64,000 nt of DNA from Flavobacteriaceae bacterium (GCA_027490305.1 JAIXYI010000063.1:1-64000), one strand, 5' to 3'. Positions 3,854-12,190 are shown, counted from the stretch's first letter. Notes: generated from the sequence alone by a model not told the origin. Numbers and translations: made by a program.

Positions 3854-6800
3854 TTAAACATTATCATTGTCAACTTTACCTTCCACAATTCTATTGTAAA
3901 TTTTCAAAACGTCTGTGGGTAGTTTTTGATTATTGTAGAAGTTTTCTCCCGTTGGGTTAAGGTCATTGTCAATCATTAAACGCAAGCACTCCTCTATGAT
4001 GTACCAAGCCATATCCTGATTTTTGAAATCCATAACAGGCTTTGCGGTGTATGGAAGTGCGGTAAATTTCCCTAAATCATTATTTACAGTTGTCCAACGG
4101 CAAAAGTTTAATATAATTGGAACTATTTTAAAATTCGGGTCTTTATCTTTTCTCTCAAAAGCTTTTTTAATTTCGTGTTCATGGATATAGTCGGTTTTCA
4201 TAAAATTTGGACTTACCATAAAGCAAGCGATGTCGGCTTCTTCCAAATGTTTTTGAATTTCGTCATTCCAAACAGAACCAGCGTCCAACTCACTACAATA
4301 CCAATGAGAAACTTTTCCGTCCCTCTGTAATGCTGAAAGATGTTCTATAAATTTGTTAACCAATCTAAGATCTTGTTTAGAATAAGAAATGAATATTTTT
4401 TTCATTTTTAATGGTGATTTTAGATACTTTTTGAATGAAGTTAAACGGTAATATCTCTTATTGAAGTGGAATATTGGATTTTGTCCTTTTTCGCTTTGAT
4501 GGATAATCTCTAGTGGAATAAATTCTTCCTGAGATTCATTAGGAACAAGCTTCTTGACTTTTATTCCTTCATTTATTGAATCAATATAATCTACAATTGT
4601 CTTAATGAATTTATCGTGTGTACCATTTACCGCATGAATGTCAAGTGAAGCACATTTGCTTTTGTTGTTCCAAGGGTCAAACTTCACCATAACAATGTCG
4701 TTACTTTTTTCGTCCTTTATCACAATGCCATTTTTCCAAAAATAAAATGAAGACTCATCACTCGTTTCGCTTAATGCTTTAGAACCGTAAGTATGAAAAA
4801 AGTCCAGTATTATACTTTTATGAATAAACGTTTCGTATTTAAAGCGATAAACTGGTTTTTCAAATAGAGATTGGAATAATTTGATGCTCTTGGGCGGATT
4901 TGCTGGTAAATAAAGCGGTGCGATAAAAGATTTTTTGTCTACAATAGGATGTCTAAAGAGAATTTTGAAATGAAGCATTAGATTGATTACATCTCGCACT
5001 CTATCACTAGATTCATCTTCACCTAATATACTTGCAATTTCAAGCTCACTAATTGCTCCAGTTTTTTTGTTAATAGAAAGAAGAATTTTATTTAAATCGT
5101 TTAGTATTTGATTTTGATTTAAGAACACCTTTTCCTTTAGTTCATTATTTTCAGGATAATAAAGGCATAAACCAATGTCAGCTAAAAACGAGGCGAAAAT
5201 TTTAGAATCCTCTAATGAGAAAAGCACTTTTTTACATTGAGTAATTGATTTACCTTTTAATTCAGGCAAGTTCTTAATAATTTCATTACAATAATTGAGA
5301 AAGTCGTCACTTGAGAAACTTTCACTGAATCGTTGTTTTTCAATATCTTGTTTTATGTAGTTCCATGTGCCTAGGAACTGACGGCTTAAAATTTCTAAAC
5401 TGTCGAAAATATCAAAAAGAGTGTTTTTTGTTATTTCAAGCCTATGATTTTTATACAGCGAAATTTGTTCAAAATCGTATATCTTAGGATAAATAGTACT
5501 TAGTTCTTCTTCATTAAGAAAAATCTTTAATTTCTTGGAATCTACCTTGTTTTGTAAAACCAATATATTCTCTTCTTCTTTTTCTTGAAAGGTTTCTGAT
5601 ACTTTGTCTATGGACGCAGTTACTGATTTTGTCCAATCAGTTTTATTTTTTAAAGATTCTTCAATCTGCTCATCTCGTTCATCAAGAATCTTTGATATGG
5701 ATTTCTCAATCTGAGATAACTTTCTTTTTTGTGTATGATACCTTATGGAATCAAGCCAATATTCAAGAGGGAAAGTCTCAATTTTCACATCCATTTTTTC
5801 ACCATCGCTTTGTGTTTGTTTTATTTCTAATTCGTCAAAACGGTTAGAAGCTCCATCCCACATTAGCGTATATGCTGTTCTGTTTGTAAAAAACAGATGA
5901 TGTGTATCATGATAATATTCTTGACCACCGAAATCAAAAATTCTTACTGTATAATTTTTGACACCTCTTTTGGCATTCCAAACTCCCAAATCCAACCAAT
6001 GTGTTGTTGGTAGTGTTTCATCTACCTTTTCATTTTTCAGCCAATGAACAAAAGTTGATTTACCGACATTGCTATTACCAACCATGATGAGCTTTATGTC
6101 GGCATTTTTAAAAGGTTTGATTTTAATTTCTTTTTCAGCTTCAAGTTGCCTAAAATATGCATTTACACTTTGCTTTCCCTTAGCAACAATTTCTGTTGGT
6201 GGAATTGATAACGGGTTTCGCCCAATGCTAATAGTTTTGTTTTCCCATTTGGAATCTTTAATATCAATTTTAGATATTAACTCTTTTATCGGAGTTAAGT
6301 CTGTAATTAGATTTGAGTGTAAATCAACAGTTTGAATTGTTGTTGGGACAGACAAAAATTTAATGTTTTTAAGTTGATTGTTGCTTAGATACAATTCCTT
6401 TAGCTTGGGGAACTTGTCAACACTTGGGAAACTATTTATTGTGTTGTTGTTTAAATATAGTTTTGATAGATTCGAGAGATTTGAAATAGGTTTCAACGCA
6501 TCAATTTCATTATTACTCAAATTCAAAATGGATAACTTTCTTAAATTTGATAAAGGTTTTATATCGGTAATATGCCAATTTGAAAAATAATATCTTTTTC
6601 TTCTTTTAGAATCCCTCCAATTACCACCAGCAATAAGAGTTTCAAGATTTTTTAAGTTTTCAATCTCTTTGGGAAATCGAAACAATATATTCGGTTCAAG
6701 TTTATTATTGCTTGTCTTTCTTATCCAACTTCCGTTAATATATTCTCCCCACTCATTACTCAGAATTAACGTTTTTAAGTGTGTATTTTCAAATAACTCT

Positions 6801-7438
6801 TTTACATCATTTAGGCTGGTTAAACCTAAGTTTCCTAAATCCAAAGTGGGGTTTTTAGTTTCAAGGTTTTCTCGTATTCGTTCTTTGGCTTGTTTTAGAG
6901 AAGAAGTATGTAAATTTATTAAAAGTTGTCTTAGGACATAGGCTATTTGAGACGTACCTTCATATTCTCTGAAATGAAAATCATGTATAGGCAGAAAATA
7001 CTCAACAAAAGGAACAAGTTTTTTAAGTGGATTTAAGTTTATGTTTTTTTCGAATTCATAAGATATAAAGGCGGGGGCAACGATAATTGTTGCCTTACTC
7101 GAAAGTTTTGTCAGTTGTTCAATGTCTTTTTGAGGAATAGAAAACTCTAATTTACGTTCATACTCGTCTGTAATGTATAGAATAATGGTCTTCGTTTTCT
7201 TTGATTCAAAAGAAGAATTTGACTCAGCAAAAATATATGGAAAATCAAAATTTCCGTATTCCTTTATCTCAACTTCCACATGACCATATTCTGTTTGTAT
7301 AATCCAATCATGTCCATCAGACTTGTCGATGGGCGGCCTTTTTTCAAAGTGAATAAACTCATCTAATGCTCTCCTGAAAAAAGTTTTTCCAATTCCTCGG
7401 CTTCCTACTATGAATAAATTACTTTTTAAAAATTCCAT
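3854..7438 (-). CDS. P-loop + LRR + Roc-COR GTPase + TIR protein (bacterial ROCO/NLR-like)
   Basis: N-terminal GSRGIGKT (aa 12-19); LRRs (aa ~198-410, LYLNNNTINSF, LYLSNNQLKNI); Roc G1 GNSNVGKS (454-461), G3 DFGGQE (502-507), G4 NKVD (630-633); COR-like region; TIR MKKIFISYSKQDLRLVNKFIEHL (~1012-1150). Confidence 0.92.
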   Translation of the reverse strand: MEFLKSNLFIVGSRGIGKTFFRRALDEFIHFEKRPPIDKSDGHDWIIQTEYGHVEVEIKEYGNFDFPYIFAESNSSFESKKTKTIILYITDEYERKLEFSIPQKDIEQLTKLSSKATIIVAPAFISYEFEKNINLNPLKKLVPFVEYFLPIHDFHFREYEGTSQIAYVLRQLLINLHTSSLKQAKERIRENLETKNPTLDLGNLGLTSLNDVKELFENTHLKTLILSNEWGEYINGSWIRKTSNNKLEPNILFRFPKEIENLKNLETLIAGGNWRDSKRRKRYYFSNWHITDIKPLSNLRKLSILNLSNNEIDALKPISNLSNLSKLYLNNNTINSFPSVDKFPKLKELYLSNNQLKNIKFLSVPTTIQTVDLHSNLITDLTPIKELISKIDIKDSKWENKTISIGRNPLSIPPTEIVAKGKQSVNAYFRQLEAEKEIKIKPFKNADIKLIMVGNSNVGKSTFVHWLKNEKVDETLPTTHWLDLGVWNAKRGVKNYTVRIFDFGGQEYYHDTHHLFFTNRTAYTLMWDGASNRFDELEIKQTQSDGEKMDVKIETFPLEYWLDSIRYHTQKRKLSQIEKSISKILDERDEQIEESLKNKTDWTKSVTASIDKVSETFQEKEEENILVLQNKVDSKKLKIFLNEEELSTIYPKIYDFEQISLYKNHRLEITKNTLFDIFDSLEILSRQFLGTWNYIKQDIEKQRFSESFSSDDFLNYCNEIIKNLPELKGKSITQCKKVLFSLEDSKIFASFLADIGLCLYYPENNELKEKVFLNQNQILNDLNKILLSINKKTGAISELEIASILGEDESSDRVRDVINLMLHFKILFRHPIVDKKSFIAPLYLPANPPKSIKLFQSLFEKPVYRFKYETFIHKSIILDFFHTYGSKALSETSDESSFYFWKNGIVIKDEKSNDIVMVKFDPWNNKSKCASLDIHAVNGTHDKFIKTIVDYIDSINEGIKVKKLVPNESQEEFIPLEIIHQSEKGQNPIFHFNKRYYRLTSFKKYLKSPLKMKKIFISYSKQDLRLVNKFIEHLSALQRDGKVSHWYCSELDAGSVWNDEIQKHLEEADIACFMVSPNFMKTDYIHEHEIKKAFERKDKDPNFKIVPIILNFCRWTTVNNDLGKFTALPYTAKPVMDFKNQDMAWYIIEECLRLMIDNDLNPTGENFYNNQKLPTDVLKIYNRIVEGKVDNDNV

Positions 7439-7633
7439 GAGTTGTTGTTCATTTTGTTTTTTGTTAGTCCGTTGATGTTTGCGCGGTTCTCTTTACGCTT
7501 GCTGGTAACTCGTTCATAACCCCGAAGAATTCATACATAACCCCCCCATTGCGGCGTATAAGTAAAAATCAACCGGAAAATCATATTTATACATCATCAA
7601 ACGACCTCTTACTATTTTCGATATTCTTTGCAT

Positions 7634-8008
7634 TCACATGCGTGTAAATCCCCCGCTATCGCGAGCGTCACGATTATGCCTATCAACGTTGGTAATCGTT
7701 TGATGAGTATTGATTTGGATGTTAGAACTGTTTTCAGAAAGACACGCCCAAAGCAACGACCCGATCCAGCCGATACCACTCCAACCCAGAAGAAAGTTCA
7801 ACAGGGCAATCGGCAGTTTGTGTTTACTCTTTCGTGAGAACGCGACAATAGTGGGTAAAAAGTAAAGCGGTAAACCGATAACCGTAAGAAAGAGGAGTTC
7901 TTTTGCGCCAAATTCTCCCAAGGCGATAAACAGGGGTGCGTACATATAGTTTTGGTTAGGTGTCAGCGACTTCAGGTAAAGACCCCAAAGCATCTCAAAT
8001 TTATACAA
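7634..8008 (-). CDS. Superinfection-immunity-like small membrane protein (Imm_superinfect-type)
   Basis: LPTIVAFSRKSKHKLPIALLNFLLGWSGIGWIGSLLWAC matches the family pattern. Confidence 0.75.
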   Translation of the reverse strand: MYKFEMLWGLYLKSLTPNQNYMYAPLFIALGEFGAKELLFLTVIGLPLYFLPTIVAFSRKSKHKLPIALLNFLLGWSGIGWIGSLLWACLSENSSNIQINTHQTITNVDRHNRDARDSGGFTRM

Positions 8009-8107
8009 TTCCCCTTGGCTGCCCTAACGTTTCCCGACCATAACACCCATTTCAACGACGAATAACAGGGGTATACGTAGAAATACGTGGAGTTAGGAGA
8101 TAGGAGT

Positions 8108-8156
8108 AGGGGAAGGAACAATGAACGATGAACCCTGAACCCTGAACCCCCAACTC
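8108..8156. repeat. Period-7 AACAATG/AACCCTG array
   Basis: aacaatg aacgatg aaccctg aaccctg aaccccc aac. Confidence 0.7.
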
Positions 8157-8315
8157 TTGCCGAACGAGCGGTTATCAATAGCGAATGAGTGCAAAGTAAT
8201 CACAGTTTTACACTTTCACTTCCGCTCATCTTAGCCTTTAACTAAAATGTACCTGATTCTTACTCAGGCCTCAGGCGCTTAGGGACTCAGGGACTAGCTT
8301 ATTCTGTATAAGTTT

Positions 8316-8516
8316 AAAAGGTTCCTCGCGGCGCTCGGAATGACGCCGACATCGGCAAGCACTAGATTTCTCGGCTACGCTCGAAATCGGAATTATAAAC
8401 CGTATAGGCGGTGCTAACGCGTTTGTAAGTATTCCACTGGTATTTCGAGCGCAGCCGAGAAATCCAAATTCTTCGCGATACACATCGTCATCCCGAGCGC
8501 CGCGAGGGACCTTTTC
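8316..8516. repeat. Palindromic repeat element, copy 1
   Basis: Outer ends ggttcctcgcggcgctcggaatgacg / cgtcatcccgagcgccgcgagggacctttt; inner gatttctcggctacgctcgaaat / atttcgagcgcagccgagaaatc. Confidence 0.85.
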
Positions 8517-8644
8517 GAGTCTCAGTCACGGGCAGTAGGTTAGTAGTCAGTGGTTAGTAGCTGGTCGTTGGTGGTAGGACGCTCCTTCTCAGTTCCTCAG
8601 TAAAGCGGTAAGCGAGGGCAAGGTGTTCCTCGATCAATGAATGA

Positions 8645-8840
8645 AAAAGGTTCCTCGCGGCGCTCGGAATGACGCCGACATTGGCAAGCACTAGATTTCT
8701 CGGCTACGCTCGAAATCGGAATTATAAACCATATAGGTCGTGCTAACGCGTTTGTCAATACTCCACTGGTATTTCGAGCACAGCCGAGAAATCCAAATCT
8801 ACCGCCGTGCGCCCGTCATCCCGACGCAGGAAGGATCCCA
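8645..8840. repeat. Palindromic repeat element, copy 2 (near-identical core to copy 1)
   Basis: ggttcctcgcggcgctcggaatgacgccgacattggcaagcactagatttctcggctacgctcgaaatcggaattataaacc. Confidence 0.85.
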
Positions 8841-8922
8841 TTCAGTAGGTAGTCGCAGTTACTCAGGGAATCATATAGTGCGGTCAGTATCTGGCCAAAA
8901 CCCGATAGACAAAGCAATTCAA

Positions 8923-9648
8923 TTAGTTAATAACACCCAGAATAGAGAGAAGAGACAAAAGAATGGCGACTATTGTCACTCCGATTGTTAATTTCTTAGA
9001 AGCAAGACTAAAAGATTGATTGGAAGTGCAAAAGCTCAAAGAAAAAAACAGAAAGAATGCCGCAATTATGGTTTTCGTTGCTACAACAAAAAAGAGGTTA
9101 CTGATTAAAATTCTCACCATGCTGTAGGTAGTAAAATGACCCGCCAAAAGGATGACGGAAGTGGCCGCCATTGAAATTATTGTTTGAGCCTTCCCTTGCC
9201 AGGATTTATTTTCAGCCTGGATCTGACCGAAGAAATTCAATGACTCAAACGAAATATTTAAGTCGGTCTCACTAATTTTGTCGTTTTCTTTGTGAAAATC
9301 TTTAAAAGTTAGTTCAAAAAGATTTTTATACGTCCTGTTTATGAATAGAAACTGCCCGAACGCATATCCAAACTCTATAAACAGGTAAATCAGAAATATA
9401 GGGATGACAATTTTGACCAATTGGGAATTAGCATAAAAATGTTCCTCTACTGGCTTTCTAATCAAAATATCATAGTGATATACGAAGCTTAATCCAATAA
9501 TGATGGATATTAATTGAAGTATCAGATTCTTTAGAAGCTTTTTTTCAATTTTTTCTTTTCGTGCTGAAATTAGATCGAAGGCGTATTTGTTGTTTTCGGT
9601 CATTGCTTTAATAGGTTGTTTCCGGTTAACGTTAAAGTTATTTCCCAA
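8923..9648 (-). CDS. Membrane protein of unknown function
   Basis: Several hydrophobic segments (NLILQLISIIIGLSFVYHY, IVIPIFLIYLFIEFGYAFGQFLFI, LTIGVTIVAILLSLLSILGVI); family not recognised. Confidence 0.65.
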   Translation of the reverse strand: MGNNFNVNRKQPIKAMTENNKYAFDLISARKEKIEKKLLKNLILQLISIIIGLSFVYHYDILIRKPVEEHFYANSQLVKIVIPIFLIYLFIEFGYAFGQFLFINRTYKNLFELTFKDFHKENDKISETDLNISFESLNFFGQIQAENKSWQGKAQTIISMAATSVILLAGHFTTYSMVRILISNLFFVVATKTIIAAFFLFFSLSFCTSNQSFSLASKKLTIGVTIVAILLSLLSILGVIN

Positions 9649-9789
9649 ATATATACAATACTGGCGTCCCGCACATATCCCCTGTCGATTTATTTTAAAT
9701 TAACGGAAGCGGGGCGGTAGGCAGTGGTCAGTGGTCAGTGGTCAGTCGCTCAGGCTCTCAGGGACTCAGGGACTTTTTGTATAAATCTA

Positions 9790-9997
9790 ACGGGTCCCTC
9801 GCTTCGCTCGTGATAACGGTGTTATCGCGGAAAATAGAGATTTCTCGCCTTGCTCGAAATTCCATTGCGACCAGCGATCCTATTTTTTGAAACCCAACTG
9901 GAGTAACCGAACGGTTGGTCAGTTACGATTTCGAGCGTAGCTGAGAAATCTAAGAACTCGGCAGTGCCCGCGTCCCGAGCGTCGCGAGGGACCTTTT
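9790..9997. repeat. Palindromic repeat element, copy 3
   Basis: gggtccctcgcttcgctcg...agatttctcgccttgctcgaaat...atttcgagcgtagctgagaaatc...cgtcccgagcgtcgcgagggacctttt. Confidence 0.8.
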
Positions 9998-10011
9998 AGT
10001 GTCAATCAAAG

Positions 10012-10075
10012 AAGTAGGTAGTAAGCAGTAGGCAGTGAGCAGTCTCAGTCTCAGTCTCAGTAGCGGTTGCAGGGG
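10012..10075. repeat. Period-7 AGTAGGC/AGTRAGC and short-period AGTCTC array
   Basis: gtaggtagtaagcagtaggcagtgagcagtctcagtctcagtctcagtag. Confidence 0.65.
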
Positions 10076-10312
10076 CTCAGTTACTCACGGGCTCCGTTAC
10101 TAATCTCGAACAAAACACCTCAACATTACCACAACATTTGCCATTTCTCACTTCCTCATTAGTGTCCGCATAAACATTTGGTAATGCTAACTATGCCCAT
10201 ATTTCAAACGTTTTCGCGAAATACAATACTGTATAGTTTTTATATAGTTAAACAAAAATCATTTTGCTTAAATTGTGATTAGATTTATGAATTAACTCAA
10301 AACTATTTAATC

Positions 10313-12190
10313 ATGAAAAAAATTACCTTTTTCCTATTATTAACTGCAACGTCACTCTCCGTTGCCCAATCCATTGAGGGTACCTGGAAGATGGCACCCC
10401 AGGCGGGCGCCTTAGGTGTCGGACCTGGTTTGGGTGATACCTCATGGTGGTCGAATTCCGCAGGGGATGTAACAACCAGAGCCTGTTATTTTGATGACGA
10501 ATATGTATTCAATGCCGACGGAACATTTACGAATGTAATGGGTTCAGAAACCTGGACCGAAGGATGGCAAGGTGGTGGAGATTCGTGTGGTACACCAGTA
10601 GCACCGCACAATGGATCAAATCCCGCTACCTACACCTATAACTCGGGTGCTGGTACCTTGACATTGAGCGGCGTAGGCGCATTTATTGGTTTGGCGAAAG
10701 CGTATAATGGTGGGGAGCTTGCAAGTCCGGCCAATGCACCTGCGTCCGTTACGTATACCGTTACTTCGTTGACGGCAACCACTATGACATTAGATATTTC
10801 AATTGGTACCGGATGGTGGCGGTTTAACCTGCAAAAGCAAGTGGCGACTTCTCCGATAGAAGGAACCTGGAAAGTTGCGGCACAAGCTGGCGCTTTGGGA
10901 GTAGGTCCTAATCAAGGTGATACATCCTGGTGGTCAAATTCGGTCGGTGATGTAGCCACAAGAGCCTGTTTTTTCGATGACGAGTATATTTTCAACGCGG
11001 ATGGTTCGTTTTCAAATGTATTGGGTTCAGAATCGTGGATAGAAGGCTGGCAAGGCGGATCCGATGCCTGTGGTGCGCCAGTAGCGCCACACAATGGTTC
11101 AAACGCGGCTACGTATATGTACAATGCATCTGGTAATACATTAACATTGAATGGAGTAGGAGCCTATTTAGGTTTAGCCAAAGTATACAACGGTGGGGAA
11201 TTGGGCAATCCTGCTAATGCACCTGCCTCGATAACCTACACGGTAACCTCGTTAACGGCTTCAACTATGACGCTGGATATTTCGATCGGCAGCGGATGGT
11301 GGCGATTTGTGTTATCTAAAGAGGGCGTCCCTAGTTGTACCGACGGCATTCAAAACGGTGACGAAACAGGCATCGATTGTGGTGGCTCTTGTGCCGCTTG
11401 TATTACAGCCCCTACTGTTGCGGCTCCAACACCACCGGCAAGACCTGCATCCGACGTTGTTTCGTTCTACAGTGATGCGTACACCAACATTGCAATGAAT
11501 AGTTTTGATGCTGGCTGGTGTGGTGGCGCTGCTACTACAGAAGTGCAAATCGAAGGCAACAATACCTTACGGAAAAATACTGGAATTCCATGTCATGGCA
11601 TCGATTTTTCCACTAACAGACAAAATCTGACCGACTTTACGTATCTCCATTTTGATTTCTATATTACAGATGCTGATTTGGTTGGAGATGTATTTAATGT
11701 GAAATTGGTTAATTTTAATGGGACGAATGCTGAAACATCAGCCTTAGAAGTGAATATCAATGGTGGTACCACACCTCAACTTGTAGCGAATCAATGGGTT
11801 CCGGTTGATGTACCTATCACAGCACTTGGTGGCGTTGTGGCCGGAAACCTGGCGCGTAATGACGTGGCTCAAATTGGTATTACAACAGCTAATGTGAGTA
11901 ATGTTTGGTATGATAACATTTATGTCCACAAAAACACATTGAGTCTTAGTGAAACCAGCAAGTCTCTCTTTACTATTTATCCAAATCCAGCGCAAGACTA
12001 TTTGACCATAACAGCTAATAGTACAATCGAGAAAGTTAAGATTTACAACTATTTGGGTCAGGAAGTCTACGCACAAGAAGGGAACAGTGGTGTAGCAACT
12101 GTAGATGTGAGTAGGTTAAATAGTGGTGTTTACATTGTCAAAACCACCATTAACGGCACTGAAGCCTCTTCTAAATTCATCAAAAGATAA
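10313..12190 (+). CDS. Secreted multi-domain protein with T9SS type A sorting tail
   Basis: Signal peptide; two ~155-aa tandem modules (IEGTWK...GWWRF); CTDGIQNGDETGIDCGGSCAAC linker; C-terminal FTIYPNPAQDYLTITANSTIEKVKIYNYLGQEV...GVYIVKTTINGTEASSKFIKR. Confidence 0.9.
   Translation: MKKITFFLLLTATSLSVAQSIEGTWKMAPQAGALGVGPGLGDTSWWSNSAGDVTTRACYFDDEYVFNADGTFTNVMGSETWTEGWQGGGDSCGTPVAPHNGSNPATYTYNSGAGTLTLSGVGAFIGLAKAYNGGELASPANAPASVTYTVTSLTATTMTLDISIGTGWWRFNLQKQVATSPIEGTWKVAAQAGALGVGPNQGDTSWWSNSVGDVATRACFFDDEYIFNADGSFSNVLGSESWIEGWQGGSDACGAPVAPHNGSNAATYMYNASGNTLTLNGVGAYLGLAKVYNGGELGNPANAPASITYTVTSLTASTMTLDISIGSGWWRFVLSKEGVPSCTDGIQNGDETGIDCGGSCAACITAPTVAAPTPPARPASDVVSFYSDAYTNIAMNSFDAGWCGGAATTEVQIEGNNTLRKNTGIPCHGIDFSTNRQNLTDFTYLHFDFYITDADLVGDVFNVKLVNFNGTNAETSALEVNINGGTTPQLVANQWVPVDVPITALGGVVAGNLARNDVAQIGITTANVSNVWYDNIYVHKNTLSLSETSKSLFTIYPNPAQDYLTITANSTIEKVKIYNYLGQEVYAQEGNSGVATVDVSRLNSGVYIVKTTINGTEASSKFIKR

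Follow-up and report, generated by a model that had tools for sequence, protein, structure and literature searches.

A ROCO–TIR protein with a degenerate N-terminal Roc copy, a predicted single-gene anti-invader sensor from a Flavobacteriaceae bacterium

The window, i.e., the whole 64,000-nucleotide stretch of Flavobacteriaceae bacterium DNA that was analysed (GCA_027490305.1 JAIXYI010000063.1:1-64000), contains an unbroken ORF of 1194 amino acids with an ATG start at 3854..7438. The ORF lies on the minus strand, and the plus strand is stop-rich there; the initial annotation had given the same ORF, and only its strand had to be corrected. Full-length orthologues with 74-75% identity and the same five parts were found in Flavobacterium anhuiense (L011/L064) and Chitinophaga sp. 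Ak27 (L012), and the gene is therefore real and conserved. No paralogues were found in its own genome. For the protein, the best reading of the domain order is pseudo-Roc–LRR–Roc–COR–TIR. The whole-protein AlphaFold2 model, built from three rows, had a pLDDT of 32 and was discarded.

The gene is AT-rich, with 31% GC against 48% in the window, and stands alone among metabolic genes. No defence neighbour of the window copy was recognised by Pfam or PADLOC, which counts against an immune reading. A ThsA-like gene, the other member of a Thoeris gene pair, was not recognised among the near neighbours either. By empty-site comparison, none of 10 relatives shared the flanks of the gene beyond the gene at 12.3-15.1 kb. 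A small membrane ORF with a TTG start (7634-8008, minus strand), 196 bp upstream of the gene, matched Imm_superinfect, i.e., superinfection immunity protein, at 3.6e-19, and was not seen adjoining the orthologues. Scattered intergenic repeats, both direct and inverted and REP-like (e.g., CGTCATCCCGAGCG...GCGAGGGACC), were found at 8316-10093; two of them, at 8316 and 8645, form a pair of 154 bp. The ORF at 8923-9648 (minus strand) encodes a protein of 241 aa that has some four hydrophobic segments and no match in Pfam, NCBIfam, or PADLOC.

The anatomy proposed earlier for most of the protein, i.e., LRR, Roc-COR, and TIR, was recovered by Pfam with matches well above chance to LRR_4 (1.7e-11), Roc (residues 449-537, 1.5e-14), COR-A (735-844, 1.4e-12), and TIR_2 (1015-1115, 1.9e-12). 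The LRR region covers residues of about 198-410 (6209..6847, on the minus strand like all features below), with an irregular start at 198-285 and LRR_4/LRR_8 matches at 290-390. Internalins matched the LRRs in the PDB, and the match to CtRoco (8r4b, 1.5e-48) spans LRR to Roc. The canonical Roc GTPase extends over residues 446-690 (5369..6103) and has an insertion at about 545-620. Its G1, G3, and G4 motifs, i.e., Walker A GNSNVGKS (residues 454-461, 6056..6079), switch II DFGGQE (502-507, 5918..5935), and NKVD (630-633, 5540..5551), were seen in the sequence and the family alignment and were invariant across the three orthologues, as is expected of a ROCO protein. All three stand exactly where they had been annotated, as does GSRGIGKT at 12-19 in the N-terminal domain. 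The COR region (residues 691-1005, 4424..5368) includes the COR-A match at 4907-5236, and Roc and COR follow each other in the order that characterizes ROCO proteins.

The protein had also been called NLR-like. Its plan of repeats, nucleotide switch, and TIR or other effector is analogous to that of NLRs (NB-ARC/NACHT), bNACHT, and Avs, but the switch is a Roc GTPase here and a STAND ATPase there. No NB-ARC or NACHT (STAND) domain was matched in the protein by Pfam at E <= 1, and the name stands by analogy only.

The C-terminal TIR domain was located at residues 1012-1160 (3959..4405), with IFISYSKQD from 1015 and HEHEI at 1086-1090, both as first annotated. It matched Pfam TIR_2, the PADLOC ThsB model (4.9e-24), and the TIR of Cat1, i.e., CRISPR-associated TIR 1 (9.3e-05), which was the closest solved TIR by family profile. 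The candidate catalytic Glu, E1089 (4172..4174), was Glu in 23/23 aligned family members and aligned with Cat1 E74 (numbered by counting from the printed alignment), so the earlier proposal of a catalytic Glu was borne out, and the conserved Glu of catalytic TIR NADases is present. Cat1 E74 is an active-site residue, and its alanine mutant was defective in vivo (PMC12162218). Cat1 S7 corresponded to S1018 and S68 to T1082. The pocket differs in part, because Cat1 D33 is Cys1048 here. Cat1 combines a CARF with a TIR domain, and cyclic oligo-adenylate gates it, whereas the window protein carries its TIR behind LRR-Roc-COR. TIR catalysis is plausible from the conservation of E1089 and its alignment with Cat1 E74, although the D33 position is changed.

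No Pfam match to residues 1-180 (6899..7438) was above the family cut-off. This N-terminal domain of about 180 aa is conserved among the orthologues and has recognisable Roc homology. With a profile of the three orthologues, the Roc domain of LRRK2, a ROCO GTPase, was found at a sub-threshold E of 0.04, and no other protein was below E 1. With two further relatives added (L067 and L069), the five-row profile A3 matched LRRK2 Roc at E 2.5e-6 over positions 6-173, i.e., over the whole domain; the top chains are all LRRK2 and count as one lineage, not as 25 independent matches. At E <= 1e-3 only LRRK2 Roc was matched, and Rab12 and septins were among the followers above E 0.02. In hhalign, the domain aligned with Roc of ROCO proteins without TIR at 94% over 132-145 columns, whereas the controls MiaA, ABC, HsdR, nSTAND, and Z1 gave short P-loop stubs at 43% or less. 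Against a larger Roc set including TIR-ROCOs, the default alignment covered the P-loop alone (93%, 20 columns). The profile search of 400 Flavobacterium genomes gave, past the true members, weak matches at E 7e-4 to 3e-3 that include ROCO proteins, and matches at E 0.005-0.01 that were mostly to the P-loop. Weak ROCO matches at the Roc position were seen in L079 (G027), L073 (G524), and L157 (G776). The structure check advised in the initial annotation was run with AlphaFold2 on three rows. Its model showed a Ras-like order of elements, and Foldseek with it matched mainly Rho, Rag, septin, and Roco2 GTPases, but its confidence was low (pLDDT 58, pTM 0.61).

It is highly improbable that the domain belongs to another P-loop class unrelated to Roc. 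This reading could draw on the low-confidence model and on L067, which alone gave weak AAA and RNA-helicase Pfam matches around the P-loop only. Against it stand the restriction of the full-length profile to LRRK2 Roc, with Ras and septin GTPases prominent next, and the full-length hhalign to Roc.

By its sequence, the N-terminal domain is a degenerate Roc copy, and it is called pseudo-Roc because it keeps the Walker A, has EYGN at the DxxG place and nothing at NKxD, and reads GKL in Chitinophaga. The Walker A, GSRGIGKT (7382..7405), is GNAGAGKS and GNPGVGKL in the orthologues; GxxxxGK was kept in 5/5 pseudo-Roc members and GKT/GKS in 4/5, the exception being the Chitinophaga GNPGVGKL, in which the Mg-binding Thr/Ser is therefore gone. 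EYGN (residues 60-63, 7250..7261) aligned with DFAG of LRRK2 as a degenerate switch II, and the site is EYGN/EYRN/EIRS/EINS among the members, which also have no NKxD or THxD. The initial annotation had proposed two NTPase modules. An active second NTPase, which would turn over nucleotide and control the protein jointly with Roc, would agree with the persistent Walker A, but this is very unlikely given the altered DxxG site, the absence of NKxD or THxD, and the Chitinophaga GKL. The domain is probably no working second NTPase, because DxxG and NKxD are lost, as is the Walker A Thr/Ser in one orthologue, and we infer that the pseudo-Roc does not hydrolyse nucleotide.

Relatives of the protein were found in 24/250 Flavobacterium genomes and 24/246 Chitinophagaceae genomes, TIR-only and Roc-only matches counted, and about 20 LRR-Roc-COR-TIR genes were recovered in Bacteroidota. 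Only five TIR-bearing relatives have the pseudo-Roc, i.e., the window copy, L064, L012, L067, and the broken L069. With limited candidates scored per genome, the domain was found in 4/400 Flavobacterium, 1/197 Chitinophagaceae, and 1/395 phylum genomes. The L069 copy (7417-10862, G466) is split into three open frames and is apparently a pseudogene. The N-termini of the other TIR-ROCO proteins are LRRs, an IF2-N-like segment (L078 and L080), or another region (L147); read by eye, the L078 and L080 ORFs start with an IF2-N-like helical segment (LNKVLRELNISLDRAV...). Other same-genus ROCO relatives show no TIR motif, so the TIR behaves as a variable C-terminal conflict effector of the PMC8195603 type. 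One such Flavobacterium relative (L074, 7775-10483) carries GNNVKGKS at aa 610, which resembles a second Walker A, maybe by chance. In a Chitinophagaceae protein (L154, 2266-4830), an N-terminal TIR is followed by a P-loop (aa 219) and then by another TIR-like motif (aa 546).

A tree built from the Roc-COR-TIR core placed the LRR-only L065, L066, and L144 with the window clade and L067 outside this group (97/96). A single-clade origin of the pseudo-Roc N-terminus is unsupported by this tree, and two changes are needed. The N-terminus has probably been exchanged at least once, because the LRR-only copies are closer to the window clade than L067 is. The N-terminal domain evolves fastest (53-57% identity between the window copy and the other orthologues) and the TIR slowest (88%), which fits sensor and effector ends. 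All domains are under purifying selection, with dN/dS of 0.13-0.18 at the N-terminus; the distant L067 (G583) was left out of dN/dS because its comparison was saturated or poorly aligned. No sign of diversifying selection was seen at the N-terminus among the three orthologues, which counts against the sensor reading.

Several relatives are placed among defence genes. In L067 (2843-12996), the TIR-ROCO gene is inside a type I RM operon, with hsdS (12 bp) and hsdM (9 bp) on either side and an HsdR-like gene upstream. The L068 gene lies 28 bp behind HsdR, with AbiEi/AbiEii, and the L066 gene 5 bp behind the candidate defence gene PDC-M50A, with ThsB-like TIRs near. L147 has a run of HTH, TIR-ROCO, ThsB, and PDC-M50A genes, L144 has an LmuB-like gene near, and L065 adjoins GHKL and Z1 genes. 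At E <= 1e-15, 150 PADLOC families were matched in 140 neighbour ORFs and 8 in 133 control ORFs from hand-picked places in the same genomes; the families overlap and are not independent, and the figures are read as a contrast, not as a probability. The defence genes nearby show shared islands, not function.

The ThsB model as the best PADLOC TIR match, together with the ThsB-like TIRs and the small PDC-M50A protein near L066 and L147, could indicate that the TIR makes a cADPR-type signal for a separate effector, as in Thoeris, rather than depleting NAD+ itself. The TIR here is fused to LRR-Roc-COR, and no ThsA-type partner was recognised in the window. No conserved partner gene accompanies the copies from the window, F. 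anhuiense, and Chitinophaga, nor was one found common to the pseudo-Roc group, and the effector would have to be encoded elsewhere; this makes a signal-producing TIR rather unlikely. The PDC-M50A proteins (a PADLOC candidate; L066 11809-12282 and L147 11310-11735), with 2-3 hydrophobic segments, are a possible membrane partner.

Around the F. anhuiense copy are RteC, topoisomerase, and DUF4099/3945 genes, a set typical of conjugative elements in Bacteroidetes, and a tyrosine integrase adjoins the Chitinophaga copy. In the core tree, the Chitinophaga copy nests inside the Flavobacterium copies. From the RteC/topoisomerase and integrase neighbours, this tree incongruence, and the low GC, we infer horizontal transfer of the gene. 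No close relatives were found in phage records, viral contigs, or plasmid DNA, and no relatives of the N-terminus on plasmids.

The protein might instead serve in signalling unrelated to defence, as a ROCO protein whose TIR is a scaffold without catalysis. The isolated position of the window copy among metabolic genes would suit such a role, as would the fact that few functions of bacterial ROCO proteins are known. However, the patchy spread, the horizontal transfer, the relatives in defence islands, and the conserved catalytic Glu argue against it, and we regard it as quite improbable.

Prokaryotic counter-invader systems built on AP-GTPase (Roc)-COR proteins were described by Kaur et al. (2021, PMC8195603), who predicted an immune role for them. 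They occur in Bacteroidetes; their N-terminal LRRs evolve fast, and their C-terminal effectors number at least 24, TIR among them. The general plan LRR–Roc–COR–TIR is already known as a prediction, because it is predicted there. The window protein shares with these systems the LRRs, Roc and COR, and the C-terminal TIR effector, and its LRRs (290-390) are N-terminal to Roc-COR. However, a degenerate Roc stands before its LRRs, whereas only LRRs are described for their N-termini, and the tandem arrangement is not mentioned in the available text. No published test of the prediction was found, most subscription journals being outside the coverage. All prokaryotic Rocos known in 2019 were described as LRR-RocCOR only (Wauters 2019, PMC6337361). 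CtRoco (PDB 8r4b, 6hlu) shares the LRR-Roc-COR core and its G1, G3, and G4 motifs, but has neither the TIR nor the N-terminal pseudo-Roc that the window protein has. What is new is a second, worn-out Roc at the N-terminus, where close relatives have leucine-rich repeats.

The protein is fairly likely to be a single-gene, horizontally mobile sensor of invaders, i.e., phages or mobile elements, of the LRR–Roc–COR–effector kind, with a TIR predicted to cleave NAD+. This reading is drawn from the domains, the catalytic Glu, the defence setting of the relatives, the mobility, the fast N-terminus and slow TIR, and the prediction in PMC8195603. The immune-sensor role proposed in the initial annotation likewise appears likely from the defence-gene context of the relatives and from that prediction. 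As a mechanism, the face formed by pseudo-Roc and LRRs would recognise either a product of the invader or a host factor that has been perturbed, and would restrain the working Roc-COR. Recognition would alter the GTP-dependent dimer state of Roc-COR; a GTP-linked dimer change of bacterial Rocos is discussed in PMC6337361. This change would bring TIR domains together, and the assembled TIRs would cleave NAD+, upon which the infected cell would stop growing.

Within this anti-invader reading, the pseudo-Roc could be an integrated decoy or a pseudo-GTPase clamp built into the protein. Having taken the place of the sensor LRRs, a Roc copy that does not hydrolyse would bait invader proteins that attack Roc/Ras-like GTPases, or would cap the dimer face of the working Roc until an invader removes it. 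Such a role is a tentative and distinctly unlikely one, but if true, bacteria would have a counterpart of the integrated decoys found in plant NLRs. With a TIR tied to a ROCO protein and relatives in restriction operons and on mobile elements, the idea that bacterial ROCO proteins are immune switches becomes directly testable. The exchangeable pseudo-Roc and LRR N-termini are natural domain swaps, from which it may be learned how the choice of the sensor trigger is made.
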